From assembly GCA_948466395.1 (NCBI GenBank), contig CAOKAG010000011.1:1-34566 (forward strand): 34,566 bases of DNA. The letters run 5' to 3'. The DNA is from an uncultured Mycoplasmatota bacterium (GTDB lineage: Bacteria > Bacillota_I > Bacilli_A > RF39 > UBA660). The notes beneath the pieces were generated by a model. It searched no databases, was not told the origin of the DNA, and saw nothing but the letters and a program-made list of their open reading frames with translations. A program made the position numbers and the translations under genes. Below are positions 82 to 22,169 of the stretch, piece by piece; position 1 is the stretch's first letter; each line of letters starts with the position of its first letter.

Positions 82-128
82 CTATATATCAAAGTTCGAA
101 TAGTTCGAACAGATTCGTCAATGGTGCG

Positions 129-160: not shown

Positions 161-222
161 AAAATAAGCTCATTCGTATTTAATAAATAAATTATAACGC
201 AAATGGTTATTTTATACAATGT

Positions 223-1467
223 TTAGTTTTGATAAAAATTATCATTAATAAAATTTATTTGCTTAAAAATTTCTTCTAGTACATTTACTACTATACTATT
301 ACCAGCCATCTTTATAAGTTTCGCATCTGAAAAAAATTTACCATTTTTCTTATTATTAAAGTTGTTATCTAAAAGAATTTGAAAGTCTTGTTCATCAAAC
401 CCCATTAACATAAAGCATTCTCTAGGGGTTAAGTATCTAAAATCGCATTTGCCTAATTTTTTATTTTTATATTTTATAACGCCTGAATTTGGATGTCTAT
501 CTTGTTTAGTTGTTATTGTAGGAACTAAATCAATAAAATTAGTATAATCATATAAAAGAGCATTATTTTTACAAATATCTCTTCTTGATTTTGTATCATT
601 TATTTGATTTGCATCTGCCTCATATTTATATAATGAATTCGAGTAATCAGTTCGTAAAATATCAGCTACATTTTTTGAATCTAATTTTAGTTTTGCTAAA
701 TCATTATTGTGAATAAATTCAAGAATTGTATTTTTTAAATCTTCATCATCATCAACTAAAAAACTTATCATATATACTCTAACCCGATTTTGTGGTATAC
801 CAAAATTTTTAGCATTTAATTTATAAACATAGTTAAAATATCCTAGTTTTTCCAAAGAATTTTGCCATTCTATAAAATTTGCTTCATGTTCTTTAGAAGC
901 AATGTTTCTAACATTCTCCATTAAAAGAAATCTGGGCATAATTTTATTAGCTTCTTTTCTTTCTTTTAATATTCTTTCTATTTGCCACAACATACTTGAT
1001 CTATTATTTGCATTTCTATCAATTCCTCCAGAAGATCCATGCCAAGCTCTAGCTATAGACAAATCTTGACAGGGGAATGAGTAAGTTAATATATTCATAT
1101 CATCTGGTAAATCACAACCATTAATATCAGTAACACTTATTAAATTTTTACTTCTATCAATTGCACAACAAAGTCTTCTCAAAACGTCGATGTTAAGTCT
1201 TTTTAATGCCTCTTTCGTAGCAGGCTTCTTACCATCTGTACTTAAAGTTAATGGTAAAATTTTTTCTAACAAAGCTTCTTTAGACATTTTTTCATATAAG
1301 GTAAGGTTTTGTTTTTTATTATGAATTATATCATAAGCAATTATAGCACTAATATCCCAATCGGCAGTATTTAATATATCAAAATCATAATTATACTTTT
1401 GATTTAAATTTAATAGTGCTTTGGCTTGAGCACCTATTCCACTAAATGTTTCAACCATTTTTAGCAT
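223..1467 (-). CDS. DNA (cytosine-5-)-methyltransferase
   Basis: A C5-cytosine methyltransferase of 414 residues, transferring a methyl group from S-adenosylmethionine to C5 of cytosine in a target that cannot be read from the sequence. All key motifs are present in order: FSGIGA (motif I, SAM site, near residue 8), PCQ in SFPCQDLS (motif IV, catalytic Cys, about residue 133), ENV (motif VI), QNRVRVY (motif VIII), a region of about 90 residues acting as target-recognition domain, LTPRECFMLMGF (motif IX) and AGNSIVV (motif X). The start is set at the ATG at 1467 because AAGGAG lies 9 nt upstream; a TTG at 1476 sits against that ribosome binding site and is unlikely. It is the last gene of the defence operon but is separated from AIPR by an 86-nt gap with its own promoter, fitting the need to methylate host DNA before nuclease functions appear. 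Confidence 0.93.
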   Translation of the reverse strand: MLKMVETFSGIGAQAKALLNLNQKYNYDFDILNTADWDISAIIAYDIIHNKKQNLTLYEKMSKEALLEKILPLTLSTDGKKPATKEALKRLNIDVLRRLCCAIDRSKNLISVTDINGCDLPDDMNILTYSFPCQDLSIARAWHGSSGGIDRNANNRSSMLWQIERILKERKEANKIMPRFLLMENVRNIASKEHEANFIEWQNSLEKLGYFNYVYKLNAKNFGIPQNRVRVYMISFLVDDDEDLKNTILEFIHNNDLAKLKLDSKNVADILRTDYSNSLYKYEADANQINDTKSRRDICKNNALLYDYTNFIDLVPTITTKQDRHPNSGVIKYKNKKLGKCDFRYLTPRECFMLMGFDEQDFQILLDNNFNNKKNGKFFSDAKLIKMAGNSIVVNVLEEIFKQINFINDNFYQN

Positions 1468-1493
1468 GATATACAACTCCTTACAATATATAT

Positions 1494-1528
1494 ATTATAT
1501 TTTACCAGGTTTTAAACTTTTTTACCAG
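1494..1528 (-). promoter_or_regulatory. Promoter with two direct-repeat operators upstream of the methyltransferase
   Basis: A TATAAT-like -10 lies at 1499-1494 on the minus strand. The 9-mer TTTTACCAG (plus strand) occurs at 1500-1508, touching the -10, and again at 1520-1528, over the expected -35. The period is 20 bp, about two helical turns. A related TATACCAG lies upstream of the operon's first gene (8743-8750). This layout suggests repression by one protein; the regulator is not identified. Confidence 0.45.
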
Positions 1529-1553
1529 CATCTAATAAAAAGTTTTTAAATTT

Positions 1554-3662
1554 TTAATTTTTAGACAAACCTTCTTCTAATAATTTTTCTCTTATTTCCA
1601 AAATAATACTTGATTGTTTAGTAGAAGGAATTCTGTTATTTTTGGTAATATTTGCAGCTATTTTTAGCAAATCCTCTTCCATTGGGGTTAATAATTTATT
1701 TGCTAAACCGAAATCTAATGCATTTTTCCAATAATCTTCTCCTAAAGTTATTACTTCTATTTCAGAATTTAATTGATTAATTACTTTTCTTTCTTTTTTT
1801 GCATTTGCTTCATCAGACTTTTCATCAAATACATCTACCAAACTACTTATAAATTCATCTAACAAAGTGAAATTTTCATTTTTTGCTCGTTCCCAACAAG
1901 TCTCCTTTTTACACCATTCAGTTACATTTAATGTTAATCTATCATCTCTATTTATAAAATCAAAAGTTTCTCTTGTAGTGATTAGTAATTGTTTTTCTAA
2001 AGCATCATTAATCTTTTGATTATTCCAAATATATTTAAAATCTATCGTTTTATTTAAATCTCTTTTTTTTATTTCGTTGAAAATTATAGAAATTGAATAC
2101 GTAACTATATTTGCACGATAAGCATGTATTTCTTTGTACCATTGCTGATTAGTCACTAATGATTCTGTTGATTTGAATATAATTGCTAGTGAAATTACTT
2201 TTTTAAAATAATATTCGTTGAAAATAGTATTATTTGACTCCCAAGTTTTTGATATTTTTTCAGCAAAATATCTCATATTAGCTTGCGATCCTCTACTTAC
2301 AATGTAAGGAACACATTCATAAGTATTTATATACTTTGCAACATCTACTTTTTTTAATAATTGATTTTTAGGATTTTTAAGTTGAAACTTCTTTTTTTCA
2401 GCTAAAGTTAATTTCATTTGCTCTTGAACATATTGACCTCTTGCTCGTTCATAAAACCACACTGTTTGATATTGGTTGCCATTTACCGTTGGTGCGTATA
2501 TTTTTCTCGAATACTCTTCCAAACGAATGTGATATGGATGATTGGAGAAAAAATCTGCTTCATCTACTTTGTTTTGACTATTAGCACATCTTGATATTAT
2601 TGGAATCATTTCTTTTGCTTTTTCATTGTCTACAACGGATAGTTTCATAGGTACATATATATTTTTTAAATTAACTTTATCTTGCAATTGTGCATTGGCA
2701 ATAGATGCCGTTGTTTGTCCTCCATTGATAATTTGTAAGTCTTTGATGTTTTTTATAAATAAGCCATTATTATTTTCTATTAAGACTTCAGTAGCTGTAG
2801 CTGCAATTCCATTATTATAAGCAAAAAACATTTCTGGCTCATTTAGTATAGTACTTCTAATTCCTTTGTTAACTTTTCCTTTTACGCTTAAAAAAGATCT
2901 TACATTTCCTTCTAATAATCTTGAACCATATTCAAGATATAATTGTGCCAAAACATCTCCTGGAATTACTGCTAAATAGGAAGAATAATTTTCATTTTCA
3001 GTAGCTTTCACACATGATAATCCTTTATCTAACATTTGCGAAAAATCAATTTCAATGCTCTCTTTTCCTAAACTAGATGTATAAATACTATAAAGTCTTG
3101 AAATATCCCAAACATTTAATTCTACAGGTTTATTGGCTAAATTTTCCTTTTTTATATTTTTAACTCTTGTACTTAATTGTTTATTTGTTATAATATAAAA
3201 TCTAAATTTTACTATATTTTGAATTCTATTTTCAATTTCTTTTGCAAAAGCATATCCATAACTACTTTCTTCAAAACCTTTAGATGTGATATAACCATTG
3301 ATACTTGCTTCAACTAAATATCTCATATTATCGTATAATTTATTTATTTCAGTAGCTGTTAGTGTAGCAATTTCTGGAGAATCATTAAAATTACTTAATA
3401 AAATTACACACGATTTATCAAATGGATCAAAATAATAACCATCCATCATGATTTTTCTATTTCTTTCGCCAATTCCTTCGAAATAACCTTGTTCAAAGTC
3501 ATCAAACTCTTCTGCTTCAATTAAAATGTTTACAACATGATTCACAAATTCATCATGAATATCACTTAAATTATAATTTGCAGATATTTTTAAATCTTCT
3601 AAAATTTCATTACTAAATTCTTTTAAATCCACTCTAATCACCGTCAACTTTAAATGTTTCAA
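1554..3662 (-). CDS. AIPR-family (abortive infection phage resistance) protein
   Basis: About 700 residues. The central part (about residues 240-400) carries the AIPR-family (PF10592) hallmarks: FLSVKGKVNKGI, a Phe-rich stretch leading to YNNGIAATA, QIINGGQTTASIANAQ and CANSQNKVDEADFFS. AIPR proteins are found in phage-defence islands; their biochemical role is poorly known and a nuclease or effector function is inference. The open frame overlaps the preceding PD-(D/E)XK gene by 29 nt and starts with TTG at 3662. In-frame GTG codons at 3641 and 3632 are alternatives, the latter with GGTGAT upstream, so the start is uncertain by about 10 residues. No start has a strong ribosome binding site, which suggests coupling to the upstream gene. 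It is the fourth of five genes of the defence operon. Confidence 0.85.
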   Translation of the reverse strand: MKHLKLTVIRVDLKEFSNEILEDLKISANYNLSDIHDEFVNHVVNILIEAEEFDDFEQGYFEGIGERNRKIMMDGYYFDPFDKSCVILLSNFNDSPEIATLTATEINKLYDNMRYLVEASINGYITSKGFEESSYGYAFAKEIENRIQNIVKFRFYIITNKQLSTRVKNIKKENLANKPVELNVWDISRLYSIYTSSLGKESIEIDFSQMLDKGLSCVKATENENYSSYLAVIPGDVLAQLYLEYGSRLLEGNVRSFLSVKGKVNKGIRSTILNEPEMFFAYNNGIAATATEVLIENNNGLFIKNIKDLQIINGGQTTASIANAQLQDKVNLKNIYVPMKLSVVDNEKAKEMIPIISRCANSQNKVDEADFFSNHPYHIRLEEYSRKIYAPTVNGNQYQTVWFYERARGQYVQEQMKLTLAEKKKFQLKNPKNQLLKKVDVAKYINTYECVPYIVSRGSQANMRYFAEKISKTWESNNTIFNEYYFKKVISLAIIFKSTESLVTNQQWYKEIHAYRANIVTYSISIIFNEIKKRDLNKTIDFKYIWNNQKINDALEKQLLITTRETFDFINRDDRLTLNVTEWCKKETCWERAKNENFTLLDEFISSLVDVFDEKSDEANAKKERKVINQLNSEIEVITLGEDYWKNALDFGLANKLLTPMEEDLLKIAANITKNNRIPSTKQSSIILEIREKLLEEGLSKN

Positions 3663-4557
3663 GACTTTCTAATAATAATTCATAATTTGTTTTTATAATT
3701 CCAATTGGTAACATATCTTTTTTAATTCTTGGAAATCTATTGTTCACTATATAATGATTCTCATTTTTTAATGAATAAACATATTGATCATAATCCTTCT
3801 CGTATTTGTATTTAGCTTGAGCTAATTTTATATCAAATAATGGCTGCAAATTTTGAGGAAGTTCTTTTTTTATTTCTTTAATATAACTATTTAAAGTAAT
3901 GCTATCAGAGACCTCTACATTACTACGTTCTAAAAATAATACTACCAATTCACCATCAACATTTGAATCTAATTGTTCAATAGAACTGATTTTTACAGCA
4001 ATCCCATTTTGATTAATAGTTTTTATTTCATACCAAGTATCATTTATTTCAAAATCTTTATGTGCTAAAGTTGGTCCCATCCATGCATTTAAAGATTTTT
4101 CATATCCATATTTTTTGAACATAATATTCTTCAAAAATATTAGTTCACCCAATAATCCTTTAACTTCTAACTCGTTTAATATTGTATTTAATTGATTTTT
4201 AAATAGTAAAATCCAGTCCTTCCATCTTTGAATAGTAAAATGAATAATATCTTTAGGTAAAATTAGTTCAGAACTTTCAATTATATCTGCACAAAATCTA
4301 TAAAATAAATCACTCATTTCTTCTTCTAATAAATCAAATGAAATAGTAATCTTGTTATCTTCTCTTTGATAAATATTAACTCGTATCATTCTGCTTGATT
4401 CAATTTCTTCTATATTGCCATTTGCAATAATACTCAGCGATTTTTTATTTTCCTCATTTAATCCCAAATAAATATTAAATGGATGCGTTGAATTAATTCT
4501 CTGATAAGAATCTGATATGCAACATGTATTAAATTTTTCTTTTATTTCATCATACAT
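3634..4557 (-). CDS. PD-(D/E)XK nuclease-like protein (DUF4420-type)
   Basis: A 307-residue protein. A GLLGELIFLKNIM helix (about residues 138-150) is followed by NAWMGPTLAHKDFEIND and TWYEIKTI (about residues 156-184). The Asp of KDFEI and the E-I-K of YEIKT match a PD-(D/E)XK metal-binding core, and the W-x-GP...DF layout fits the DUF4420 family (PF14390). It is therefore the probable DNA-cleaving component of the system, although catalysis is inferred from the motif only. Its ATG overlaps the Z1 gene's stop by one base (TAATG), a sign of translational coupling, and its 3' end overlaps the AIPR frame. Confidence 0.78.
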   Translation of the reverse strand: MYDEIKEKFNTCCISDSYQRINSTHPFNIYLGLNEENKKSLSIIANGNIEEIESSRMIRVNIYQREDNKITISFDLLEEEMSDLFYRFCADIIESSELILPKDIIHFTIQRWKDWILLFKNQLNTILNELEVKGLLGELIFLKNIMFKKYGYEKSLNAWMGPTLAHKDFEINDTWYEIKTINQNGIAVKISSIEQLDSNVDGELVVLFLERSNVEVSDSITLNSYIKEIKKELPQNLQPLFDIKLAQAKYKYEKDYDQYVYSLKNENHYIVNNRFPRIKKDMLPIGIIKTNYELLLESLETFKVDGD

Positions 4558-7241
4558 TATTCTTCACCATCTTCAACATCGATTTGCCCTAAAGCAGAAA
4601 ATATTTTATTTATTTTATAAGTTGCATATTTAGTTTTTTCATCTTGCAATTCAGGTATTCCTATTTCTAATCCTACCAATGGAGTACTAATATTCGTAGG
4701 ATAATCAGGATTTATATTAAGTTCAATTAAATAAATTAGCAATAGAGGATTTCTTTTTATTTGCTGTATAAAATACGATTTATCACTTACAGTTTTTGCA
4801 CCCTCATGATACTTAAAATATTCATTTTTAGCAAACTCGATTTGTTCTTTTAATAAACCAAATTTTGTATCACCAAGACTTCCTAACCTTATTTTTGATT
4901 TACTAATTCTAATAAGTTCTTGTGAACTATTGACAATATCGTAACTTCTTTGACTATATTGTATTTTTATATCATCAAATAGTGTGTTATTATCACTACC
5001 ATCCCCACTCGGAAAGGCAATATCCCAATAATCCAATTCACTTCCTGCATAGTTTTCAATAAATTTTGCAATTGCTTCTCCATCAAAATGAGAATTCGCA
5101 TATGGAAAATCACATTTTTTCAAGAAATCAATCACATACTTCTTCTCAATTTGAAAATAACCGTATTTATTAGTTGCTAAATCTTTAGTTGGATATTTAT
5201 TTTGACTTTTTAACTCTTGAATTAATATTTTTACATTGTCATAATTTAGGTTGTTTTTATTTTGATTATTGAAAATATAAGGGGTTTCAACTACTTCACC
5301 ACTCAAAGAAATATTTTGTTTTATTTCTTTGGAAGTTCTCATTTTGTTTCTAGCAGTAACCAATAAAGTATCTATGTCACTTCTAACTCGAAAACCAAAA
5401 TCAAGTGGAGTAAGTCCTAAATCTCGCATTCTTCGAACATCTCTTCTTAGTTCATCAGTAGCTTCACTTATATATTCATACCAATTTATATTTTCTTCAC
5501 TCATCCAAATTCTACATAAATCTTCATAGTTTGTCCTATACCCAAACCATCGTCCCATTTGCATTAATGTATCATACATTTTTGAATTTCTATAGAAGTA
5601 ACTTACAACTAAACCTTCCAATGTTAAACCACGAGATAAACTTAATCCACCAACAGCTATAATTCTTAAACCATTTTCTTCATTTTCTTCATAGTTTAAT
5701 GTACCAGAATTATTTCTGTTTACAATAGTCACTTGTACACTAACAATCGATTCGTATAATTGTTTTTGTATCGTTTCCCACTTAAATCCTACATTAGAAT
5801 ATTCTATATCAAAAGTATTTTTTAAAGTCTCTATATTTTTATTACATAATGCCTCTGTTGGTTGTAAACTTCCAAATGTTTTAACAGAACTCTGTATATC
5901 TTTTAAATAATTATTTATCAAATCATAAATCTGACCTTGACAATTATTAAATCTACTTATATTTACTAACATGGAACGATGAGTAGTAATATCACCGCGC
6001 AAATCTCTAATAACATTTGCTAAAAGAAAAGTATTTATTGCATTGCATAAGCTTGGAGAAAGTTCTGAAAATACCATTTCCTTTTTATGATCAAGTGGAT
6101 AATAGATTTCTCCATCATTTATTATTTTTAACATACTCCTATGTTTTGCACTTTCTGGAAATATATTTCTAGCGCCGATATAATTTGAAGGAGGATTTAA
6201 AGTATAAATATAATTTTTAGGAAATAAATCTTCGTTTGCCATTTCCTCATTTGTTTCTGGATCAATAAAAATATTAGCGAATGGAGTAGCGGTAAATCCA
6301 ACATAACTAGCCCTATTAAACATACTTAACATTTCCCTTATCAAAGCATTAGTTTTAGTAGGATCTCTATCTTCTGAATTCGTATTTATTGAAGCATTAT
6401 CTGATTCATCATCAATCATTAATAAAGATTTATCAATTTTATTATTACCATTTGTATTCAGCCTTTTGAACCAGTCATTTAATTTATTTAAGGCATTCAC
6501 ATTCTTTTTTATAACAAATATTGCAGGATCATTTAAAGAATCTAATGGTAATCCTAAATTATTAGCTTGTTGTGCTTTAAAATCAGATATTTTAGTAGTA
6601 AATGAAACTGCTTTTAGACTTTTATCATATTTACCAACACCAACTTCAACATCTTTTTGTTTCATCATAAAATTACTATCTCTGCCCGTAAATGCCTCAT
6701 CAATTCTTTTTTGGGTTTGCCTTCTTAATCTTTCAATCGTACCTGTTAACAAAACAATTACTTTATATCCTGCATCAGCGGCTTTGCAAATTAATCCACT
6801 ATAATTTGCTGTTTTCCCAGATTGTACATCTCCGATAATTAAACCTCTTCTTTGGAAATTTAATTGATAGGGATCTCCTAGTAAGTCAGTTAATTCATCA
6901 CTAACTAGATCCATTGTATTTACCGTTGGAACTGAAAATCCCTTATCATTTAATAAGTATGTTCTGTATCTTTCCCAGTAACTCATACTTAATTCTTTTT
7001 TTCTATTCATAAACCAAGGTTTATATGGTAAAATTATTCCAATACCTTTATCTAAAGTAATTAAATATTCAGCATGAATTTCTTTTCTAATTAGCGATAT
7101 ATCACTTTCAGTAATATCTTTAAATAATGGACTCAATCTTAATTCTCGAATTATTCTATCTATTTCTTTTTCATCATAAACTTCATTACTTGCTAAATAA
7201 CTTTTAATCATATTTTTAAAATTAGAAATTTGTTTGTTCAT
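4557..7241 (-). CDS. Z1-domain superfamily-2 ATPase/helicase-like protein
   Basis: An 894-residue ATPase of the Z1 family (PF10593). Walker A is GDVQSGKT at residues 137-144, the Walker B/DEAD-like box is IDDESD at 276-281, and motif III is FTATPFAN at 316-323. The Z1 signature follows near residue 535 as GGLSLSRGLTLEGL, with QMGRWFGYR as the motif VI arginine region. Z1 proteins occur with MORC-type ATPases and DNA methyltransferases in restriction-like operons described computationally by Iyer, Abhiman and Aravind (2008). The likely role is ATP-driven movement or remodelling on DNA coupled to the nuclease partner. The ATG follows the ATPase stop with no gap, and GAGGTGG within the end of the upstream gene serves as ribosome binding site. 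Confidence 0.92.
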   Translation of the reverse strand: MNKQISNFKNMIKSYLASNEVYDEKEIDRIIRELRLSPLFKDITESDISLIRKEIHAEYLITLDKGIGIILPYKPWFMNRKKELSMSYWERYRTYLLNDKGFSVPTVNTMDLVSDELTDLLGDPYQLNFQRRGLIIGDVQSGKTANYSGLICKAADAGYKVIVLLTGTIERLRRQTQKRIDEAFTGRDSNFMMKQKDVEVGVGKYDKSLKAVSFTTKISDFKAQQANNLGLPLDSLNDPAIFVIKKNVNALNKLNDWFKRLNTNGNNKIDKSLLMIDDESDNASINTNSEDRDPTKTNALIREMLSMFNRASYVGFTATPFANIFIDPETNEEMANEDLFPKNYIYTLNPPSNYIGARNIFPESAKHRSMLKIINDGEIYYPLDHKKEMVFSELSPSLCNAINTFLLANVIRDLRGDITTHRSMLVNISRFNNCQGQIYDLINNYLKDIQSSVKTFGSLQPTEALCNKNIETLKNTFDIEYSNVGFKWETIQKQLYESIVSVQVTIVNRNNSGTLNYEENEENGLRIIAVGGLSLSRGLTLEGLVVSYFYRNSKMYDTLMQMGRWFGYRTNYEDLCRIWMSEENINWYEYISEATDELRRDVRRMRDLGLTPLDFGFRVRSDIDTLLVTARNKMRTSKEIKQNISLSGEVVETPYIFNNQNKNNLNYDNVKILIQELKSQNKYPTKDLATNKYGYFQIEKKYVIDFLKKCDFPYANSHFDGEAIAKFIENYAGSELDYWDIAFPSGDGSDNNTLFDDIKIQYSQRSYDIVNSSQELIRISKSKIRLGSLGDTKFGLLKEQIEFAKNEYFKYHEGAKTVSDKSYFIQQIKRNPLLLIYLIELNINPDYPTNISTPLVGLEIGIPELQDEKTKYATYKINKIFSALGQIDVEDGEE

Positions 7242-8687
7242 TTATACCACCTCATATTCAAACATTTCTTTTAGCTTTTCATATTTACAATAGGGTTCAG
7301 TTTTTAATAACTCTTTTAGCACAATTTGCGAATCTAATCCATGCTCTTCACAAAATTTCAACTGAATTTTAATTTCATTAAAAAGATTGTCTATATCTTC
7401 TTTTGTATCTAAATTAATATCTCCCTTTGCTCCATCTAAATATATTGAATGTATAGGAAAATAATTTTCAATATTTTCAATAATTACTGATAATAATTTT
7501 AATTGTTTGTCATTTAAACTTGTTTCAAGCATTTTTAATTGAGGCATTTCGCGGTTTATTTTATATTCATAACAATTGTCTCTCATTTCTATTCTATCCC
7601 AAATATAATTCACATTATTATTTATTTTTCTTCCTCTATACTCATGAACATTTTTACTTTTAATAACAGAACCTACAATAGCACTGTATAAATTTTGTTT
7701 TATTAAATCTGGTAAATTAACAGAGCTTTTTTTTATATCAATTCCCCACATATAATCTAAAGAGCTAGGAATATCGACTTGTATTCTAGCTAATTTTCCT
7801 AATTCTTCTTTCCTAGCTAACCTAAACCATGTTCCATGGATTATTAATCTTTTATTTCTATAAATGTAAAAACCTTGATTATTTTTTAAATCATCTTTTC
7901 CCCCAACTTTTTTTATGTCTTCAGGAGTCAACTTATTGAAAAATGGTAAAATATATGGTTGTAATGTAATAGTAGATTTATCAATAGTAAATGATTGTTC
8001 TCTCATAATTTGAGTAGCTTTATGATTAGTTAAAAAAGGATCAACAGGTTCAATTTTTTTATTATTAACATAAATACTAACTTTATCCTCTAAAAATCTA
8101 TGAAAAACTAATGCTAAATGATCCATTGTTGTAGACATATAATTAGTAATTGTATTTTCTAAATTGCTAGTTGAGGATGATATTCTATCAAAATTTTGTA
8201 ATAAAACATAAGTTCCAGAATCAACATTATTAAATAAATTTATCATAGGTAATTTGTTTATTTCTTCTTTAATATATTCGACTATAACCCAACCTTTTTT
8301 TTCATATACTAAATCTATATCCCATGAAAAACAAGATATTTTTTCATTTTTTTTACTAGCAACCACTAATTTTCTACACTGAGATAACGAAGCAGATTTA
8401 AGTCCTAATCCAAAGCGTCCTAAATCAACATCATTTCTCTCATCAATCGGATTTTTACTACCATATCTTAATGCTTCTTCTAATTCTTTTTCATCCATGC
8501 CACACCCATTATCAAATATAATTAATTTTGGGTTTGATCCAGGAGTTAAAAATATATCTATTTTTTTTGCATTTGCACTAATACTATTATCTACTAAATC
8601 TGCTATTGCTGTTTCAAAAGAATAACCTATAGATCTCATCGATTCAATTAGTTGAGGAGCAAATGGAATACTTTCTTTTTCTATCAT
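7242..8687 (-). CDS. MORC/MutL-type GHKL ATPase of a restriction-like system
   Basis: A 481-residue protein with a Bergerat-fold ATP site. Motif I is DLVDNSISANA near residue 30, motif II is FDNGCGMDEKE near 60, and motif III is GRFGLGLKSASLS near 95. This spacing is typical of HSP90/MutL/MORC ATPases, and neighbours with Z1 and C5-methyltransferase domains are the ones in which bacterial MORC homologues were described. It probably forms an ATP-dependent clamp or switch controlling the nuclease. The start is the ATG at 8687, with AAGGAG 8 nt upstream; a GTG at 8696 overlaps that site and is unlikely. It is the first gene of the defence operon, and the next gene begins directly after its stop. 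Confidence 0.9.
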   Translation of the reverse strand: MIEKESIPFAPQLIESMRSIGYSFETAIADLVDNSISANAKKIDIFLTPGSNPKLIIFDNGCGMDEKELEEALRYGSKNPIDERNDVDLGRFGLGLKSASLSQCRKLVVASKKNEKISCFSWDIDLVYEKKGWVIVEYIKEEINKLPMINLFNNVDSGTYVLLQNFDRISSSTSNLENTITNYMSTTMDHLALVFHRFLEDKVSIYVNNKKIEPVDPFLTNHKATQIMREQSFTIDKSTITLQPYILPFFNKLTPEDIKKVGGKDDLKNNQGFYIYRNKRLIIHGTWFRLARKEELGKLARIQVDIPSSLDYMWGIDIKKSSVNLPDLIKQNLYSAIVGSVIKSKNVHEYRGRKINNNVNYIWDRIEMRDNCYEYKINREMPQLKMLETSLNDKQLKLLSVIIENIENYFPIHSIYLDGAKGDINLDTKEDIDNLFNEIKIQLKFCEEHGLDSQIVLKELLKTEPYCKYEKLKEMFEYEVV

Positions 8688-8710
8688 AGTTAACACTCCT
8701 TCGCAACCTA

Positions 8711-8750
8711 ATTATATCAAATAATTGTAAATATATATAGGTTATACCAG
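8711..8750 (-). promoter_or_regulatory. Probable promoter of the defence operon
   Basis: On the minus strand there is an extended -10, TGATATAAT (hexamer at 8716-8711). No clear -35 is seen. TATACCAG at 8743-8750 resembles the TTTTACCAG repeats in front of the methyltransferase, suggesting shared control of the nuclease and methylase ends of the operon. Confidence 0.45.
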
Positions 8751-8794
8751 TAAATATATTATTTAAATTTTAACAACAGGATATGAGAAAACAC

Positions 8795-8845
8795 CACGAA
8801 ATCTTAGAAGCCTTATAAATAAAGGCTTTCTAATGATTTTCCGTG
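8795..8845. repeat. Long imperfect inverted repeat
   Basis: Arms at 8795-8814 (CACGAAATCTTAGAAGCCTT) and 8822-8845 pair over about 20 bp with small bulges around a short AT-rich loop. It lies beyond the last gene of the recombinase operon and before the defence operon. A short T-tract on the minus strand (GTGTTTTC) makes a terminator for the recombinase operon possible. A recombination site is an alternative. Confidence 0.45.
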
Positions 8846-8856
8846 CACCAATACCT

Positions 8857-8874
8857 ATTTCGCACTTGCGAAAT
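8857..8874. repeat. 18-bp palindrome
   Basis: ATTTCGCA-CT-TGCGAAAT is a perfect 8-bp inverted repeat with a 2-nt centre, directly beside the longer hairpin. Its function is unknown. Confidence 0.45.
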
Positions 8875-8894
8875 GTATGTACAAGTTTAACTTT

Positions 8895-8961
8895 TTGTAT
8901 ATACAAATACCTTTTTTCTAACCTAAATTCCTTATTTTAAAAGAAAAACTTGTATATACAA
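8895..8961. repeat. Two identical 12-bp palindromes (TTGTATATACAA)
   Basis: TTGTATATACAA occurs at 8895-8906 and again at 8950-8961, with a partial copy (TATGTACAAG) at about 8876-8885. Identical palindromes in a gene-free stretch suggest binding sites for a dimeric regulator. They lie just past the 3' end of the 77-residue gene and about 210-270 nt upstream of the defence operon. Confidence 0.45.
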
Positions 8962-8985
8962 TTGTAAATACAACCTATTTTTTAT

Positions 8986-9219
8986 CTAAAGATTAAGTTC
9001 TAATTCTTCTTCTATAAATAACACTTCTTTTTTATCAGTGCTGTATCTAAAATAGGCTTGTTTATCATCACAATCAATTACTTTAATAGTATCTTTATCA
9101 TACAAAAATATTTTAAATGAAAATATATTTAGATTCTTTTTAAAATATTGTAATACTCGATATTGATTGATTGTTTCTACGCGATTTTTAATTATTTCAT
9201 CACTTGTTAGTTGTTTCAT
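8986..9219 (-). CDS. Small protein of unknown function (recombinase operon, third gene)
   Basis: A 77-residue protein from the ATG at 9219, chosen because AAAGGA lies about 9 nt upstream. An N-terminal extension is open but lacks a better ribosome binding site. The sequence is Lys/Asp/Glu-rich with a beta-rich second half (FSFKIFLYDKDTIKVID, KEVLFIEEELEL) and no motif I recognise. It overlaps the upstream 57-residue gene by 20 nt, so the two are probably translated together. Its position behind a large serine recombinase allows a recombination directionality factor, but nothing in the sequence proves this. Confidence 0.6.
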   Translation of the reverse strand: MKQLTSDEIIKNRVETINQYRVLQYFKKNLNIFSFKIFLYDKDTIKVIDCDDKQAYFRYSTDKKEVLFIEEELELNL

Positions 9220-9373
9220 TTTTAGTTTCCTTTCTTTCATTTTCTTTTGTATATTCAATCAATAGATTTTTATATTGTTGTTCTATTGATTTTGGGATAA
9301 ACTCTAATACTTTTGTTTCATCTTTAAAATATTCAAATAATTGTGGTATTAATAGCTTAAAAAATTCATTCAT
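9200..9373 (-). CDS. Small helical protein of unknown function (recombinase operon, second gene)
   Basis: A 57-residue protein starting MNEFFKLLIPQLFEYF at 9373, with a very strong ribosome binding site (AAAGGAGGTG) 4 nt upstream. The first half is hydrophobic and helical and the C-terminus is rich in Lys, Glu and Asn. It begins 38 nt after the recombinase stop and overlaps the next gene. Not recognised. Confidence 0.65.
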   Translation of the reverse strand: MNEFFKLLIPQLFEYFKDETKVLEFIPKSIEQQYKNLLIEYTKENERKETKNETTNK

Positions 9374-9410: not shown

Positions 9411-11357
<1,947 letters not shown>

Positions 11358-11651
11358 TTAACAATCTTTATTCATCGTATTTAAGATAGAAATATACTTA
11401 GTGATAGAAATAATAGCACTCTCATTTGGAAGATAAATTTTATCATCATTATCATAAAGTAAAGCAACAAGAGTATTCTTTTTATTACTAACAATAATCT
11501 TATGTGGTTCTTGAACGCTTAGATTTGTTTTATTAAATTTAATCAAATGTCCATTAATAAACTCAACTTTTAAGTTTCCCATACTAACTTTCATTTTTAG
11601 TTTTTTCTTAATTTCACAAGGAAATTCTAATGTTTCTATGGTCGTTTTCAT
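11358..11651 (-). CDS. Conserved hypothetical protein, 97 residues
   Basis: A beta-rich protein starting at the ATG at 11651; AAGGAG lies 14 nt upstream, which is long. The middle (EFINGHLIKFN, KIIVSNKKNTLVALLY, KIYLPNESAII) faintly recalls the C-terminal PUA-like part of TruB pseudouridine synthases, but there is no catalytic domain and the resemblance is weak. It sits between the 11-bp repeat array and tRNA-Leu. No function is assigned. Confidence 0.55.
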   Translation of the reverse strand: MKTTIETLEFPCEIKKKLKMKVSMGNLKVEFINGHLIKFNKTNLSVQEPHKIIVSNKKNTLVALLYDNDDKIYLPNESAIISITKYISILNTMNKDC

Positions 11652-11754
11652 AAAAATTCATCAACTCCTTTACAACAATGAAAAAAGCCCATAATATCAA
11701 ATACTATGAACTTTATATATGTAAAATCGCTTAAAGTGCGACTTTTAACCTCAA

Positions 11755-11839
11755 TGGTGCAGGTAAAGGGACTTGAACCCCCATGGATTGCTCCGCTAGA
11801 TCCTAAGTCTAGTGCGTCTACCAATTTCGCCATACCTGC
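11755..11839 (-). tRNA. tRNA-Leu (anticodon UAG)
   Basis: An 85-nt gene including an encoded CCA. The acceptor arm is GCAGGTA/TACCTGC, the anticodon stem-loop is CTAGA-CTTAGGA-TCTAG with anticodon TAG, and the T-arm is GGGGGTTCAAGTCCC. The long variable arm (CGGAGCAATCCATG region) is typical of a class II tRNA-Leu. It is probably cotranscribed with the upstream CAU tRNA. Confidence 0.95.
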
Positions 11840-16117: not shown

Positions 16118-16156
16118 CTTAAATGTCGTTATAACCTTTATTTATAAGCATTTAAG
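16118..16156. repeat. Inverted repeat at the left end of the element
   Basis: CTTAAATG (16118-16125) and CATTTAAG (16149-16156), with inner TTATAA matches, form a hairpin that includes the int stop codon. It may end the int transcript or help form the recombination complex. Confidence 0.5.
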
Positions 16157-17441
16157 ACATTTTTAATTTTGGAAGATGTTCACATATATTTTTATAATTT
16201 CTTATATTTTTGTTTTCAAAAGTAGTAAATTCGTAGTAAAATTGCTTTTGCTTATTTATTTTTTCCATCTCTGTTTTTGCCGACATATAGGTAGGGTGTG
16301 TGTAATAACTTAATGTCATAGAAATATTTTTATGTCCCATAATGTATTGTAGTGTATGAGGGTTTAAACCATCGTTAGCCCAATTCGTGCAAAATGTATG
16401 CCTTAATGTATGAGGTGTCATTTTTTTAGGTAGTTTTTCCTCATGACATTTATTATACTTTTTCACAATTCGATTAAAAATACCATCATACTCTATGTTT
16501 GTTCTTGGGTTACCATTTCTATTTATAAATAAAAAACCACTATAACCATCAATAACAATAGTATTTGTATTTTTACGATTATCTATTATACGCTTAAAAA
16601 TTTCATATGCTTTGTCGCTCATAGGTACTTTTCTTGTTCCGCTATCGGTTTTAGTATCGTCAATATAATAACCTCGTTCACTATTTTTTAAAAGTTGATG
16701 GTCTATATTGATTAGTCTATTTTCAAAATCTAGGTCGGTTTCTATTAGTCCGCAAAATTCCGATATACGAAGTCCCGTTTCTCTTATTAAAATAATTTCG
16801 TCATAATATTTAGAACAAGTTTTATCACTTTCTATAAAAGAGTATAGGCTTTCTTCTTGTTCTAATGTAAGGGGTATATTCTTCTCGGTGTCATTTTCTA
16901 TTACATCGTCAATTTTAAACTCAAAAGGGTTTTTCCTTATATAGTCGTCTTGTATAGCCATTTGAAACGCTGAATATAAAGAACGCTTATCATTTTTTAT
17001 AGTTTGGTAGGCTATTCCTTTTTCTTTCATTCGTATAACCCATTCTTTGGCGTCCGACATCTTAATATTTTCAATAGAACAAGCACCAATTTTATCTTCT
17101 TCTAGGTATCTCATAAGTCTATTGCGTCCTTTTTTTGTTTTATCTTTAACATTTGGTCGTTGATTATTCTTTTTAGCATATAATTGACATACACTTATTT
17201 TTTTGCCTATGGTGTCGATTCCATCGCTAATGTCTTTTAAAATTTCTTGTTCCTTTTCTCTTAAAGACTTGTCGTCGCGTTTTCCGTTTGGTGTTTTATC
17301 GGTTTGCACTAACTTCCAAGCATATATAAATTGTGGTTTTCCGAAACTATCGGTATATTTGTAAACATATCTTCCATCTTTTCTTTGGCTCTCTCCGTTA
17401 TGTAGAATTCTATTTTTTTTATCGCGTCTTTTTTCTATCAT
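16152..17441 (-). CDS. int: Tyrosine recombinase (Tn916 Int family)
   Basis: 429 residues. An N-terminal arm-binding domain (RRDKKNRILHNGESQR to FIYAWKL, about 5-43) has the three-stranded pattern of the Tn916 Int N-domain; a SAM-like core-binding domain covers about 85-180. The catalytic domain holds R225 (ETGLRISE), K264, H344/R347 (HTLRH), H370 (GHKN) and the nucleophile Tyr in SYYTH (379/380). It integrates and excises the element. GAAAGGAGC before the ATG at 17441 sets the start. Oddly, the C-terminus runs about 30 residues past the usual Tn916 end, and the arm-type repeat lies inside this extension (codons about 400-409). Confidence 0.95.
   Translation of the reverse strand: MIEKRRDKKNRILHNGESQRKDGRYVYKYTDSFGKPQFIYAWKLVQTDKTPNGKRDDKSLREKEQEILKDISDGIDTIGKKISVCQLYAKKNNQRPNVKDKTKKGRNRLMRYLEEDKIGACSIENIKMSDAKEWVIRMKEKGIAYQTIKNDKRSLYSAFQMAIQDDYIRKNPFEFKIDDVIENDTEKNIPLTLEQEESLYSFIESDKTCSKYYDEIILIRETGLRISEFCGLIETDLDFENRLINIDHQLLKNSERGYYIDDTKTDSGTRKVPMSDKAYEIFKRIIDNRKNTNTIVIDGYSGFLFINRNGNPRTNIEYDGIFNRIVKKYNKCHEEKLPKKMTPHTLRHTFCTNWANDGLNPHTLQYIMGHKNISMTLSYYTHPTYMSAKTEMEKINKQKQFYYEFTTFENKNIRNYKNICEHLPKLKMS
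16214..16242. repeat. Arm-type Int-binding repeat, left copy
   Basis: A 29-bp sequence repeated in direct orientation at 25663-25691 with one mismatch (c at 16232, a at 25681). It contains two GTAGTAAA units 11 bp apart. In Tn916 such direct repeats near each end bind the Int N-domain. This copy lies inside the int coding region. Confidence 0.7.
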
Positions 17442-17469
17442 ATTTTTTTGCTCCTTTCAATAATAGAAA

Positions 17470-17511
17470 GAGCCTTGATATGCAATAACATTATATCACA
17501 CATTAAGGCTC
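17470..17511 (-). promoter_or_regulatory. Inverted repeat with internal -10 between xis and int
   Basis: GAGCCTTGAT (17470-17479) and ATTAAGGCTC (17502-17511) pair over 9 of 10 positions. On the minus strand the stem is followed by TTTCTATT, and the loop contains GATATAATG, a -10-like hexamer pointing toward int. It can act as a terminator after xis and as a separate promoter region for int. Confidence 0.5.
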
Positions 17512-17519
17512 AATTTTCA

Positions 17520-17744
17520 TTAAATTACATTTAAAGTATCAATAATTTTTTCAAATTGTTTTCTTTTTATTTGAATTCGGTTGCCGTTCATGATAACCCA
17601 ACTTGCGTTTAGGTTTTCTTCTGCTAATTTACGAAGTTTATTTTCGCCAATACGGAAATACTTTGACGCTTCCTCAATAGTGAGTAGGTACTTTTGCCAA
17701 ATAGGAACATCGTTACTATTTAAGTTATAAATTTTGTTCTCCAT
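17520..17744 (-). CDS. xis: Excisionase (Tn916 Xis family)
   Basis: 74 residues. The stretch [35 protein letters not shown] (about 21-55), then [15 protein letters not shown], follows Tn916 Xis nearly residue by residue: a winged-helix MerR-like fold that bends DNA at the element ends and favours excision. It overlaps the ftsK-like gene by 20 nt with AAAGG before its ATG, so it is made together with Rep and the FtsK-like ATPase. Thus replication/transfer and excision appear to be expressed in one run. Confidence 0.95.
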
Positions 17745-19194
17745 CTATAGCCTTTTGTTTATGTAATTTTTCAGTTACTTTTTCTTGGTCTAAATAGTAA
17801 CCTCTAAATAGTTCCCCGTTGTTTGTAACAAATAAACCTTTTTCACCATTGTTAATTAAAGTATTTCCCTCATAATTTCCTTTACCTAGTACAACTTCGG
17901 AAGATGGCTTATCGCTTGTTCTTCCACAAATTCTATTATCTAAATTCGATTTGATTTGACCCTCAATTAGTTTGTGGTCGGGGCGTTGTGCCGATAAAAT
18001 AAGATGTATCCCTAGTGAACGACCTCTTGTTGCTATTGTTGTTAAAATATCAATAATATCTTCTGCTATATCTTTATATTTTTTATTAGAGATTTCTACA
18101 AACTCGTCAAAAACATATATGATACGACTTAATGGGGTATATTTTTTGCCATCAACTTCTTGCCATTTTTTAGACATTATCTTGTTGTATTTATCTATAT
18201 CTCTACATCTAGCGTTTTTAAATTCTACCTCTCTAGCTGCTAATTCTATATCAATTTTTCTTAAATCTTCTAACGCCTTATCTAACGAAGTAGATACTTG
18301 ACATTGTTTATCTTCTAATGATTTTCCAAAGTAATCAAATTCTTTTATTGTAAGTTTGTCCCAACCAACAAACTCGGTTTGTTTTGGATCACAAACTCTT
18401 ACAATATAACCCTTATGTAATGACTGATAGATAAGTAAATCTAGTAAAACCGATTTACCGCTACCCGTTGAACCCGCTACTAAATAATGGGGTGTATCGT
18501 TTATATTTCTAGTAATTTTTTTGAATAAGTTTTCCCCTAAATAATATGTAGGACTATCACAATCTAGGTTTTTGTCGTTCCAATCTATTTTTTTGGGTAT
18601 TTTATTATTAGGGCTTATAGTTGTTATTTTTATTTTGTTTTTGGTGTTTTTGTAAGGCTCTATCTCGACTATGATTTTATTAAGTGCGGTTTCTAAATCT
18701 GCTTTTGTTTCGTCCTCTCGCCATTTATCTATGTTTATACTATTAGCATTAAGTATCATAATAACCATACGCAAATTAACCCATGCTCTTTTTATTTTCA
18801 TTAAATAAGGGTGGTCGCCATTTGCATTTTTAAGCCCTTTAACGCCTTTTATTTGTTTTTGCTTATAGTCTTTTAATTTAAAGTTGTTTCGTAGCCATAA
18901 TATCAATAAAATAAGTCCTACAATTTCTAAAAAATATATAGGTACATATATGTTTTTATAAAATTGATTAAATGTAATCGTTTTTATATAATCATGATTT
19001 AAAAATTTATAAACTATTTCATGTTGAAATATTGTTGAATTAAGTATAAAACATAATATTAGGTATAGAAATGATACAAACCATTTCCATTTATAACATA
19101 ATTCTAAAATAATATAAGCAAATAATTTTACTATAAATTTTAAATACTTTAATACATGATGTATAATTTTATTCAATGTTTTTTTCTTCTTCAT
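17725..19194 (-). CDS. FtsK/SpoIIIE-type DNA translocase (Tn916 Orf21/TcpA-like coupling ATPase)
   Basis: 489 residues. Two to three N-terminal membrane segments (about 21-52 and 83-101) are followed by an FtsK/HerA motor: Walker [10 protein letters not shown] at 240-248, a Walker B of the form [12 protein letters not shown] near 355, and a [16 protein letters not shown] segment typical of the family. In Tn916-like elements the equivalent protein brings nicked DNA to the secretion channel; here it may couple Rep-bound DNA to a helper's system. It overlaps rep by 26 nt and xis by 20 nt; GGAGG lies 9 nt upstream of the ATG within the end of rep. Confidence 0.92.
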
Positions 19195-20170
19195 TTTCTA
19201 ATTCCTCCAATTTTTTAGTCATTTTATGTACTATAATTGAGCCATCACTTTTGTACTCAATTATGTTATGAATTCTACGCAAAAATGCGTTCCAAACCTC
19301 TCTATATTTAAAACTATATTGTAGTTCATAATATTGCTCCTCTAGGGGAACATTTGAGGTTATATAGACATAAGTATAACAAGCCACTTTATCATTGTAT
19401 CTAGCGGGTAGCATAAGGGGGTAGATGTCTAAATAGTTAAGCATATCGCCAATAGGTATTTGGCTATGAAATTCCTCGAAAACGAGCGTACTCATCACGC
19501 TTCTATATGAGTCAAAAAGTATCCCTCTACTGCCCGTATAATTTGTGATACGACATACATTTTTAGCACCATGCCTTTTGTATATATCTCGCGTTTTTCC
19601 GCACCCTGTATGCCCAAAGACATATGTACAAACGATATTTCGGTTTTCTTTCATGTACTTGTCGGCTAGATATGTTTCTCTTATTAGGTCTATATCTCGT
19701 ATTTTTAAAGCCCATTGTGGACTATTTTCTATTATCTCGATGTTTGACTTACCATCTTTTATATCTTCTAATAATTGCCCTATAACGGGGTCTTTTTCTT
19801 GTAATTCCGATGGTATCGTGCCATATTCTACAAAACTGCCCTCAATAGATGTTTCGGCTTTGTCTGTATTTTCAAACTTGCCCGTTTTTCTCACATAATC
19901 AATGTTGTCTTGTATAGTTCCATAGGCTTTTTCTATGTGGGCTATTTTATTAAAGCGGTTTTGTATTGTTGTAAATCGAATAGGCGACTTTGAATAAATA
20001 AAGATATGGATATGTAGCGTTTGTGTTTCGTTGCCGATTTCCTTACACATACAATAGTAGTCAAGAGCGAATTTTTGCAAAGTTTCTTTTATTACTTCAT
20101 CCGTAAAGCCGTGTTCTAGTGGGTTATTTATCGTTAAAGCCCATTTACGACTTTGGCTATTATCTGCCAT
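19169..20170 (-). CDS. rep: CRESS-type replication initiator: HUH endonuclease plus superfamily-3 helicase
   Basis: 333 residues with every expected motif in order. HUH motif I is KWALTINNP (9-17), motif II LHIHIF (52-57, metal-binding His53 and His55), and motif III DYVRKTG (91-97, nicking Tyr92 with Lys95). The superfamily-3 helicase shows Walker A GHTGCGKT (186-193), Walker B LVFEEF (229-234), motif C YITSN (269-273) and Arg residues near 289-299. This is the two-domain layout of circovirus/geminivirus Rep and of bacterial pCRESS plasmid Reps, not of Tn916 Orf20. It should nick and join DNA at the TAGTATTAC origin just upstream and drive rolling-circle replication of the excised circle; it may also act as relaxase. 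ATG at 20170 with AGGAGTG upstream. Confidence 0.93.
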   Translation of the reverse strand: MADNSQSRKWALTINNPLEHGFTDEVIKETLQKFALDYYCMCKEIGNETQTLHIHIFIYSKSPIRFTTIQNRFNKIAHIEKAYGTIQDNIDYVRKTGKFENTDKAETSIEGSFVEYGTIPSELQEKDPVIGQLLEDIKDGKSNIEIIENSPQWALKIRDIDLIRETYLADKYMKENRNIVCTYVFGHTGCGKTRDIYKRHGAKNVCRITNYTGSRGILFDSYRSVMSTLVFEEFHSQIPIGDMLNYLDIYPLMLPARYNDKVACYTYVYITSNVPLEEQYYELQYSFKYREVWNAFLRRIHNIIEYKSDGSIIVHKMTKKLEELENEEEKNIE

Positions 20171-20262
20171 GTTATCACTCCTATTTTTTATAGTTTAGAT
20201 TATTATTAAATTTTCAAAGAACTAATGCGCTAATACATATACTAGTTAATACACGCCCATGA

Positions 20263-20296
20263 GTGGGGCGAGTGGCGTAGCCACTTTAGCCCCCAC
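20263..20296. repeat. Nested GC-rich hairpin next to the CRESS-type origin
   Basis: Outer arms GTGGGG (20263-20268) and CCCCAC (20291-20296) enclose a perfect inner hairpin AGTGGC-GTA-GCCACT (20271-20285). It is markedly GC-rich in a very AT-rich region and ends exactly where the origin stem begins. It may be part of the origin or a signal for the second strand. Confidence 0.7.
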
Positions 20297-20326
20297 CATA
20301 TAAGGGCTAGTATTACCCCTTATATG
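20297..20326 (+). other. CRESS/circovirus-type replication origin stem-loop
   Basis: CATATAAGGG (20297-20306) and CCCTTATATG (20317-20326) form a perfect 10-bp stem; the loop is CTAGTATTAC. It contains TAGTATTAC (20308-20316), a nonanucleotide found at the nick site of circovirus-like genomes, cut by Rep as TAGTATT/AC. The neighbouring gene encodes a Rep with all HUH and superfamily-3 motifs. The loop sequence is on the strand opposite to rep. Confidence 0.93.
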
Positions 20327-20344
20327 TAGCATGTAGCATGTAGC
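20324..20344 (+). repeat. Three tandem 7-bp iterons beside the origin
   Basis: ATGTAGC is repeated three times without a gap (20324-20330, 20331-20337, 20338-20344), with the first copy sharing ATG with the right arm of the origin stem. Short direct repeats touching the stem are the Rep-recognition sites in circoviruses, so these are the likely Rep-binding iterons. Confidence 0.85.
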
Positions 20345-20440
20345 AATAATTTTTATAAATTTACCTTAATGTTAATCTTGCTACTATTTAAAACAATAGC
20401 AAGATGTAACAAATCGGTAGTCAATAAGTCAATTAGTAAC

Positions 20441-20731
20441 TTATTTTTTGCTTGTTTCGGTAGAGTCAACGAATTCTACAAAACTAACATTTTTGTATCT
20501 GTCGTAAAGGAATTCTTCTACATATTTGCCTACAAGACTTTTAATTTCTGATGTAGTTAATTCTTTACCAAAAGTTTTGGTTAAGACATCATATCTTACC
20601 TTAACTACTGAAACCCTAAGTCCTTCGCTTTTATCTTTGTTGTTAAACTCTTCCGCACAATGAAAATTAACATTATGAAATGGCTTATTTTCAAACTCGC
20701 CAATTCTTTCTTCAATACCTATAATTTTCAT
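20441..20731 (-). CDS. Small protein upstream of the origin, unknown (possible DNA-binding accessory)
   Basis: 96 residues, beginning MKIIGIEERIGEFENKPFHN. The N-terminal half is beta-rich and ends in LRVSVVKVRYDVL; the second half is helical. Small proteins of this form sit next to rep genes in several Gram-positive plasmids and elements and may bind single-stranded DNA, but I cannot assign a family. AAAGGAGA lies 10 nt upstream of the ATG. TTGACA occurs 30-35 nt upstream of the ATG, but no matching -10 is seen. It precedes the origin and rep on the same strand. Confidence 0.7.
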   Translation of the reverse strand: MKIIGIEERIGEFENKPFHNVNFHCAEEFNNKDKSEGLRVSVVKVRYDVLTKTFGKELTTSEIKSLVGKYVEEFLYDRYKNVSFVEFVDSTETSKK

Positions 20732-20870
20732 GGTCTTAATTTTCTCCTTTCATTAAATTTTTGTTTTGTCAACGCTCCTTTTTCGCTGACATAATGGTTA
20801 TAGGCGATTAAATTTTCATAGTAAAAAAACACCCTTTAAAATAAAAAGTATTTTTTTACATACATAATAA

Positions 20871-20894
20871 AAAGCCGTATTTTAGTACGACTTT
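20871..20894 (-). terminator. Intrinsic terminator of the sigma-factor gene
   Basis: On the minus strand AAAGTCGTA and TACGGCTTT form a 9-bp stem (one G-T pair) around a 6-nt loop, followed by TTTATT. It lies about 20 nt after the sigma gene's stop. Confidence 0.75.
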
Positions 20895-20912
20895 GTTTAA
20901 ATATAAATATTA

Positions 20913-22169
20913 TTAAATAGTTTTTTTCGTTCTTTTTTTCTTTTCAGTTTGTAAAAAGTCTTTTTCTTCTACACCAAACAATTCTAAAACTTTGTTACAA
21001 TAAGCAATAGGGTATCCTTTTAAATTTTCTAAAATAAATGAATATGCCATGTGTGTTTTATCATTTTCTTTTAAGTAGCACCCACTTAATCTAATAAGTT
21101 TTTCTATTATATTAGTGCTTATCTTAAAATATATACCAAATGCTATTAGCGAAACTAAACTTGGTGATGCTTTACTAGATTTATATGATGAAAAACTGCT
21201 TTTATCTAATTTTGTTGCCCTACAAAACATTGTTTCAGTTATTCCTCTATCTTCACAAATTTTTTTAAAAAATTTACCAAAAGTAGGATACATTGTACTT
21301 TCGCTATAATCACGAAAGAATTTAGTTGAAAGTTCTTTAAAATCTTTTTCTTGTAAATCTTCATAATTTTCATATTCAGATATTTTTTCGCCTTTTACTG
21401 ATACATCAATGTTTTTCTTACATTCTTCAATAATCTCTTTTAATAAATTTATCGTTATTCCATTTTCTATATTATAATATTCTTCTGACTGACGAAATGA
21501 AATATCCTTTAATTCAATATCATTTTCTATTGTATGAATTCTTTGTCTAGTAGAGTTAAGCATTTTGGCTGTGGTAGTGATATTATATTTTTTTCTTAAG
21601 AGATAAACTCTTTTTTCGCCTTTAGTTAAAGTTCTAAAAAATGCTTTATCTATTCTCTCTCTAATTTTCAATTCTTCTTTTGCTATTAACTGTTCTTCGG
21701 GGTTCATGGAATTATCTGCTATAAAATCTGCCATAATAGATTTACTTTCACTATCAATAGAATTTTCCAATGAAACTGTTGGTTGAATAAGTTTTTTAAT
21801 TTCACTCAATTTTTCTAATGGTATTTGCAATTTATCGGCAAGTTCATTATCTGTTGGCTTTCGATTTAATTCTTGGGTTAATTCATTTTCGGCTCGTTTC
21901 ATTTCAATTATTTGATTATTTCTATATCTTGAAAAACCTAATAATTGTGCTATACCTTTTTGAACATTGTATTTTATCCATGGTGTAGCATAAGTTGAAA
22001 ATTTAACTCCTTTGTTATTATCAAATTTTTGTTTTGCTTCTAAAACTCCTATATATCCATATTGCTCTAAATCTTCTATATCTTCTGCTGATAATCCTTT
22101 TGGCGAATTTTTTTTAATAATACTTAATACCAAGCCTCTATTTTCTTCTATTAATTTATTGTCCTCCAT
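20913..22169 (-). CDS. Sigma-70 family factor fused to a C-terminal HTH-like domain
   Basis: 418 residues. Region 2 (about 10-75) has GYIGVLEAKQKFDNNKGVKFSTYATPWIKYNVQKGI, the core-binding and -10 recognition segment; region 3 follows at 80-125 (NRKPTDNELADKL) and region 4 at about 180-218 (LTKGEKRVYLLRKKYNITTTAKMLNSTRQRIHTIE). After a linker, residues 297-365 (FFKKICEDRGITETMFCRATKLDKSSFSSYKS) look like a Cro/CI-type HTH. Sigma factors do not normally carry such a tail. It likely directs RNA polymerase to element promoters, with the tail binding DNA or a signal. GAGGAGGT precedes the ATG; it has its own promoter and terminator. Confidence 0.88.
   Translation of the reverse strand: MEDNKLIEENRGLVLSIIKKNSPKGLSAEDIEDLEQYGYIGVLEAKQKFDNNKGVKFSTYATPWIKYNVQKGIAQLLGFSRYRNNQIIEMKRAENELTQELNRKPTDNELADKLQIPLEKLSEIKKLIQPTVSLENSIDSESKSIMADFIADNSMNPEEQLIAKEELKIRERIDKAFFRTLTKGEKRVYLLRKKYNITTTAKMLNSTRQRIHTIENDIELKDISFRQSEEYYNIENGITINLLKEIIEECKKNIDVSVKGEKISEYENYEDLQEKDFKELSTKFFRDYSESTMYPTFGKFFKKICEDRGITETMFCRATKLDKSSFSSYKSSKASPSLVSLIAFGIYFKISTNIIEKLIRLSGCYLKENDKTHMAYSFILENLKGYPIAYCNKVLELFGVEEKDFLQTEKKKRTKKTI

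Follow-up and report, generated by a model that had tools for sequence, protein, structure and literature searches.

The window, a 34,566-nt stretch of DNA that begins at the first base of its contig (genome 1.36 Mb, ~90% complete), carries five long ORFs on its minus strand, identified by ORF calling. They encode a MORC-family GHKL ATPase, a Z1-type SF2 ATPase, a DUF4420 nuclease of the PD-(D/E)XK type, an AIPR protein and a C5-cytosine DNA methyltransferase (Table 1). An earlier note had named these five families, and each is matched in Pfam, with E-values from 1e-34 to 2e-96. Its gene list and coordinates are likewise right, and the end that it gave, 8687, is an internal ATG of the MORC ORF, three codons inside the GTG at 8696; both starts are possible. 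Four of the genes overlap or abut, as had been said: the MORC and Z1 genes abut, the Z1 and nuclease genes overlap by one base, and the nuclease and AIPR genes overlap by 29 nt, given the TTG start at 3662. The end of the AIPR gene lies 77 nt from the start of the methyltransferase gene downstream. A first promoter scan found 78, fewer than the 86.5 expected from shuffles, and is given no weight.

Table 1 Features of the operon and of the element that carries it (positions in the window)
Feature	Position	Strand	Remarks
MORC-family GHKL ATPase, MzaB-like	7242..8696	-	484 aa, GTG start; Pfam HATPase_c_3 1.5e-34
Z1-type SF2 ATPase/translocase, MzaC-like	4557..7241	-	894 aa; Pfam Z1 2.3e-76
DUF4420 PD-(D/E)XK nuclease, MzaD-like	3634..4557	-	307 aa; Pfam DUF4420 3.1e-50
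AIPR protein, MzaE-like	1554..3662	-	702 aa, TTG start; Pfam AIPR 2.4e-96 and AIPR_N 4.2e-35
C5-cytosine DNA methyltransferase	223..1476	-	417 aa; Pfam DNA_methylase 1e-48
Left attachment repeat TCAATGGTGC	118..127		10 bp, exact match to 11751-11760
Small element ORF, kept in copies with other cargo	8986..9258	-	homologues in L102, L103, L104
Large serine recombinase	9411..11291	-	Pfam Resolvase 4.1e-38, Recombinase 1.4e-21
97-aa ORF, adjoins attachment site, common to all element copies	11358..11651	-	homologues in L102, L103, L104, L128
Right attachment repeat TCAATGGTGC	11751..11760		overlaps tRNA-Leu 3′ end (CCA)
tRNA-Leu (TAG), integration site	11755..11839	-	ARAGORN

The operon is cargo of an 11.6-kb large-serine-recombinase element inserted at the 3′ end of a tRNA-Leu gene. 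Five same-genus genomes (G001, G004, G007, G014 and G020) have the same tRNA without the element, and the sequence outside the left repeat resembles one such empty site (L097), including a hairpin at 94-110, now 11.6 kb away from its tRNA. The same element is present in two further same-genus genomes, with a recombinase 87% identical, and there a Mob_Pre relaxase gene, together with a metallo-hydrolase gene or HTH genes, takes the place of the stretch from ~221 to 8997. The Z1 gene itself occurs in none of the 21 same-genus genomes. The borders of the element, the empty sites, the copies with other cargo and this absence therefore identify the operon as recent mobile cargo. Such a compact cassette of five genes, for which the element borders and an empty site are known, offers a clean experimental starting point. 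A Pfam search with the 97-aa ORF beside the attachment site gave no match. Copies of the element with a Mob_Pre (MobV-type) relaxase and varied cargo were seen at L102 (14059-16408), L103 (13355-15561), L104 (5752-6918) and L128; in the window's copy a relaxase ORF is absent, and the defence operon stands where it would be. The host genome has one more copy, which lies at tRNA-Leu(CAA) and differs in its contents. Farther along the window, at 16152-22169, genes for a Tn916-type tyrosine integrase, an FtsK-like ATPase, a Viral_Rep-type replication protein and a sigma-70-domain protein stand in a row and are probably another integrative element, distinct from the first.

With the Z1 protein as query, GTDB genomes yielded 80 loci, spread over Bacillota, Pseudomonadota, Chloroflexota, Planctomycetota, Verrucomicrobiota, Spirochaetota and other phyla. 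The earlier note had proposed looking for the same gene set in other genomes, and the recurrence of the same order at ~80 loci excludes a chance assembly. The one-strand order MORC-Z1-nuclease-AIPR is broken in just three of the 80 (L017, L039 and L041); L039 has no MORC match and L041 is a contig fragment. L017 (7308-14906, Pasteurellaceae) encodes MORC, Z1, AIPR and a methyltransferase of class D (classes are set out below), and its DUF4420 nuclease gene is absent. A genome of the same class as the host (L113) has the five genes in identical order. Wherever at least 3 kb was available on each side of the core, a C5 methyltransferase gene lay within 5.5 kb of it (44 of 44 loci). The arrangement "ATPase first, methylase last" in the earlier description fits the window and roughly half of the relatives, the others having the methylase gene upstream or inverted.

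The mobile setting and the wide distribution bear on the idea of a selfish addiction module, in which the methylase and the nuclease core would stabilise the element and phage defence would be a by-product. The operon is indeed cargo of an integrative element, and at the same place in relatives the element has a relaxase and other cargo. We nevertheless hold such a module to be very unlikely, as four core proteins, two of them ATPases, far exceed its needs and the contexts in which the operon occurs across phyla are of many kinds.

The gene set is already known, and the window's operon is a further example of a described system type. Iyer et al. (2008) described neighbourhoods of MORC, Z1-type helicase and RE-fold genes with AIPR and cytosine methylases (PMC2292703), and the tie to them drawn earlier holds: the MORC, helicase and RE-fold signatures are all present. 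With the MORC operons of that study that contain the SFII helicase type 3, the window's operon shares the patterns GhXhhpXXRhl, DThhQXuRhFG and E-D-ExK, AIPR and a methylase; nothing essential differs, and it belongs to them (PMC2292703). Three points were missing from the earlier note: the serine-recombinase element at tRNA-Leu, the kinship with MzaB-MzaE, and a listing by Miller, Stern and Burstein (2022). In that paper, a putative defence "Type II" consists of Z1, PD-(D/E)XK, cytosine methyltransferase and AIPR with associated MORC, has ~20% identity to MzaBCDE and includes MzaA in few cases only, and mzaABCDE is termed a validated system (PMC9523054). In gene content, the window's operon showed no difference from this type. 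What is new here is the element and its borders, the near-invariant core order, the constant methyltransferase, the exchange of its classes and the Vsr pattern.

The best PADLOC or NCBIfam matches of the four core proteins are MzaB, MzaC, MzaD and MzaE (in PADLOC, 1.2e-72 for the MORC protein with MzaB and 1.4e-74 for the AIPR protein with MzaE), and by these matches the core proteins are distant relatives of MzaB-MzaE. The MZA system (mzaABCDE) reportedly goes back to Gao et al. 2020. Strict membership in it was rejected, because the core proteins fall short of the NCBIfam equivalog cut-offs (MzaB 304 of 850, MzaC 512 of 1500, MzaD 94 of 420 and MzaE 329 of 1050 bits) and MzaA is absent. The element holds no sixth operon gene for MzaA; the genome's matches to the MzaA model cover positions 361-669 only, its sigma-70 part, and resemble ordinary sigma factors; such matches also occur in 10 of 14 control genomes. 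Unlike MZA, the window's operon adds a C5 methyltransferase. In CglI and NgoAVII, cleavage is driven by a Z1-type SF2 ATPase that forms a subunit of its own, in CglI with extensive ATP hydrolysis, and a C5 methyltransferase belongs to the system (PMC4267653). The window's operon likewise sets a separate Z1-type SF2 ATPase alongside a nuclease and a C5 methyltransferase, whereas the nuclease of CglI is of the PLD family and bears a B3 DNA-binding domain, and CglI has neither MORC nor AIPR (PMC4267653).

The MORC protein carries the sequence GFYIYRNKRLI at residue 275, which fits the S5-domain motif GhXhhpXXRhl used by Iyer et al. to define MORCs (PMC2292703); the pattern is present in 77 of 81 relatives. 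When its profile was searched against PDB structures, human MORC2 structures were the top matches, with MORC4 and MORC3 also leading. In eukaryotes, MORC ATPases work together with DNA methylation; the bacterial relatives of these proteins occur in operons of this kind, with a mechanism that is almost unstudied. D33, D36, N37, D62, G66, G93-G98 and K100 are invariant in an alignment of 39 homologues. The catalytic position of the N-box is Asp33 in all 39, none having Glu there. GHKL ATPases normally carry a catalytic Glu at that position, and Asp33 may point to slow or gated ATP hydrolysis. The Z1 protein has the motifs GDVQSGKT, DDESD, FTATP and DTLMQMGRWFG, the cores of which are invariant across 42 homologues; the last, at residue 557, corresponds to the DThhQXuRhFG of Iyer et al. 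and is matched in 80 of 83 relatives. A profile search of PDB sequences with Z1 gave no match.

Motifs I, IV (PCQ), VI (ENV), VIII and X are all present in the methyltransferase. Among solved relatives, 4dkj and 8c56 are the closest to it (5e-55), the former being the CpG enzyme M.MpeI. The catalytic region is 39% identical to that of M.MpeI and the target-recognition region 23%, and the M.MpeI loop ANSRIK is replaced by KQDRHPNSGVI. Because the target-recognition region differs, the CpG target of M.MpeI and M.SssI is not to be assumed and was ruled out as a prediction. The methyltransferases beside the core loci fall into seven classes by BLAST score ratio, of which the window's enzyme belongs to class D; within this class the target-recognition regions are 33-52% identical, suggesting that its members probably share a target of their own. 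The host genome also encodes, at C9:3232-4323, another C5 methyltransferase that is unrelated to the operon. At L002 (14799-16146) the methyltransferase lies in two frames, of 145 and 294 aa, which points to a split enzyme of two subunits or to a frameshift.

These classes and the Z1 tree, a FastTree built on the Z1 protein alone, are approximate, and on this tree 17 changes of methyltransferase class and 15 changes of position or orientation are counted; its well-supported branches alone require five changes for class D. A comparison of L056 with L060 illustrates the exchange: Z1 is 84% identical, MORC 79%, the nuclease 77% and AIPR 70%, while the methyltransferases are 30% identical and of different classes. 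By sequence comparison, then, the core effector genes are conserved and the methyltransferase is exchangeable. No core protein covaries with methyltransferase similarity: partial rank correlations, with the distances of the other core proteins held constant, were 0.00-0.10, none clearly above permutation, and a core protein acting as a specificity subunit that tracks the class was not found by this measure. The survey thus poses a testable question, namely how one conserved core works with seven sequence classes of methyltransferase. Class does not equal target, and different classes may share targets.

A gene for a Vsr endonuclease (PF03852) lies beside 48 loci and follows methyltransferase class, being present at 10/10 class C and 28/35 class A loci and at 0/7 of class D and 0/6 of class E. 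Vsr repairs T:G mismatches that arise from deaminated 5-methylcytosine, and its presence beside these operons speaks for standing methylation of the host's DNA in the relatives that have it. No Vsr gene was found in the host genome of the window.

In the DUF4420 protein, E138, D168, E177, K179 and Q195 are invariant among 54 homologues, and the conserved residues map, in a model with a pLDDT of 92.5, to a helix (129-150) and two strands (169-171 and 174-181) such as are expected of a PD-(D/E)XK core. A fold search with this model gave no significant PDB match, so the assignment as a nuclease rests on Pfam, the invariant residues and the secondary structure. The AIPR protein has 39 invariant columns among 63 homologues, and an AlphaFold model built from these reached a pLDDT of 89.9 and a pTM of 0.59. 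A profile search of PDB sequences with AIPR gave no match, and comparison of the model with the PDB gave nothing below E 0.001; the best weak fold match of the N-terminal part was HamA of Hachiman (E 0.05, probability 0.92), followed by MspJI (E 0.65) and the N-domain of pNOB8 ParB (E 1.2). As leads only, the model suggests a possible restriction-endonuclease-like fold, lacking a conserved ExK, for the N-terminal domain and a possible similarity of the conserved middle (NVRSFL, YNNGI, NGGQT) to ParB-type folds. AIPR as a second PD-(D/E)XK nuclease was considered and rejected: the N-terminal part has no conserved catalytic ExK in the 63 homologues, and comparing its profile with that of the DUF4420 family turned up nothing.

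The presence of MspJI and HamA among these matches would fit a modification-dependent, type IV-like system, in which the core attacks foreign-modified DNA and the methyltransferase is regulatory. We give this reading hardly any credence, as the two matches have E-values above 0.05, type IV systems need no linked methyltransferase, and the linkage of Vsr argues for stable host methylation.

The best reading, drawn from the relatives, is a role in restriction-type defence. More fully, and with a probability of roughly 0.6, the five genes would constitute an ATP-dependent restriction-modification system in which a conserved effector core is paired with an exchangeable, self-marking methylase on a mobile element. 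The C5 methyltransferase would mark a cytosine-containing target in the host chromosome, and the core of MORC, Z1, PD-(D/E)XK nuclease and AIPR would act on incoming unmarked DNA. Z1 is predicted to be the motor by analogy with CglI, where a Z1 ATPase has been shown to serve a separate nuclease (PMC4267653); the MORC dimer could be a DNA clamp gated by ATP, licensing or stalling this motor, DUF4420 would make the cut, and AIPR would be a second effector or a coupling subunit.

Several observations are consistent with restriction-modification. The conserved motifs are intact in all five proteins, a methyltransferase accompanies each of the 44 complete loci, and Vsr at 48 loci fits constant host methylation. 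The core is kin to MzaB-MzaE, and the gene set is listed as a putative defence type by Miller et al. (PMC9523054). Cleavage in CglI and NgoAVII is driven by a Z1 ATPase in a system with a C5 methyltransferase (PMC4267653). The spread of the operon is sporadic, with Z1 in 0/21 same-genus genomes, and it lies within an integrative element. On the other side, no evident sequence-reading domain was found in any core component, and 17 changes of class with no core protein following them are odd if the core reads the site of the methylase. A relative (L017) lacks the nuclease gene, and the MZA equivalog cut-offs are not reached.

The same uncoupling of methyltransferase class from core evolution favors an infection-triggered system, abortive or MZA-like, whose core would sense a DNA structure or a product of the phage. 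AIPR or the nuclease would then damage phage and host DNA or RNA, and the methyltransferase would shield host DNA or silence the core rather than define a restriction site. The nearest relatives of the core proteins, MzaB-E, and the derivation of the AIPR name from abortive infection point in this direction, as do two regions that change far more rapidly than the remainder, a pattern expected of sensor surfaces: in moderately close pairs, residues ~660-870 of Z1 and ~600-690 of AIPR are 43-65% identical and the bulk of each protein 70-95%. We consider this alternative rather unlikely but a serious one, given that every complete locus has a methyltransferase and that CglI, a related system with Z1, is a genuine restriction system (PMC4267653).

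Within restriction-modification, the four-protein core might also do no site reading of its own and be a general DNA-processing effector that pairs with almost any C5 methyltransferase, self being judged by the state or density of methylation or by contact with the methyltransferase. We regard this proposal as unlikely; if true, it would be a restriction logic with specificity solely in the exchangeable methylase. The fast-changing regions of Z1 and AIPR are, from their divergence, candidate contact or sensing surfaces. Within one closely related group, the variable C-terminal part of Z1 showed no agreement with methyltransferase class. In L057, L081, L064, L073 and L079, the C-terminal third of Z1 occurs in two strongly different versions on a nearly identical remainder, as if swapped by recombination.
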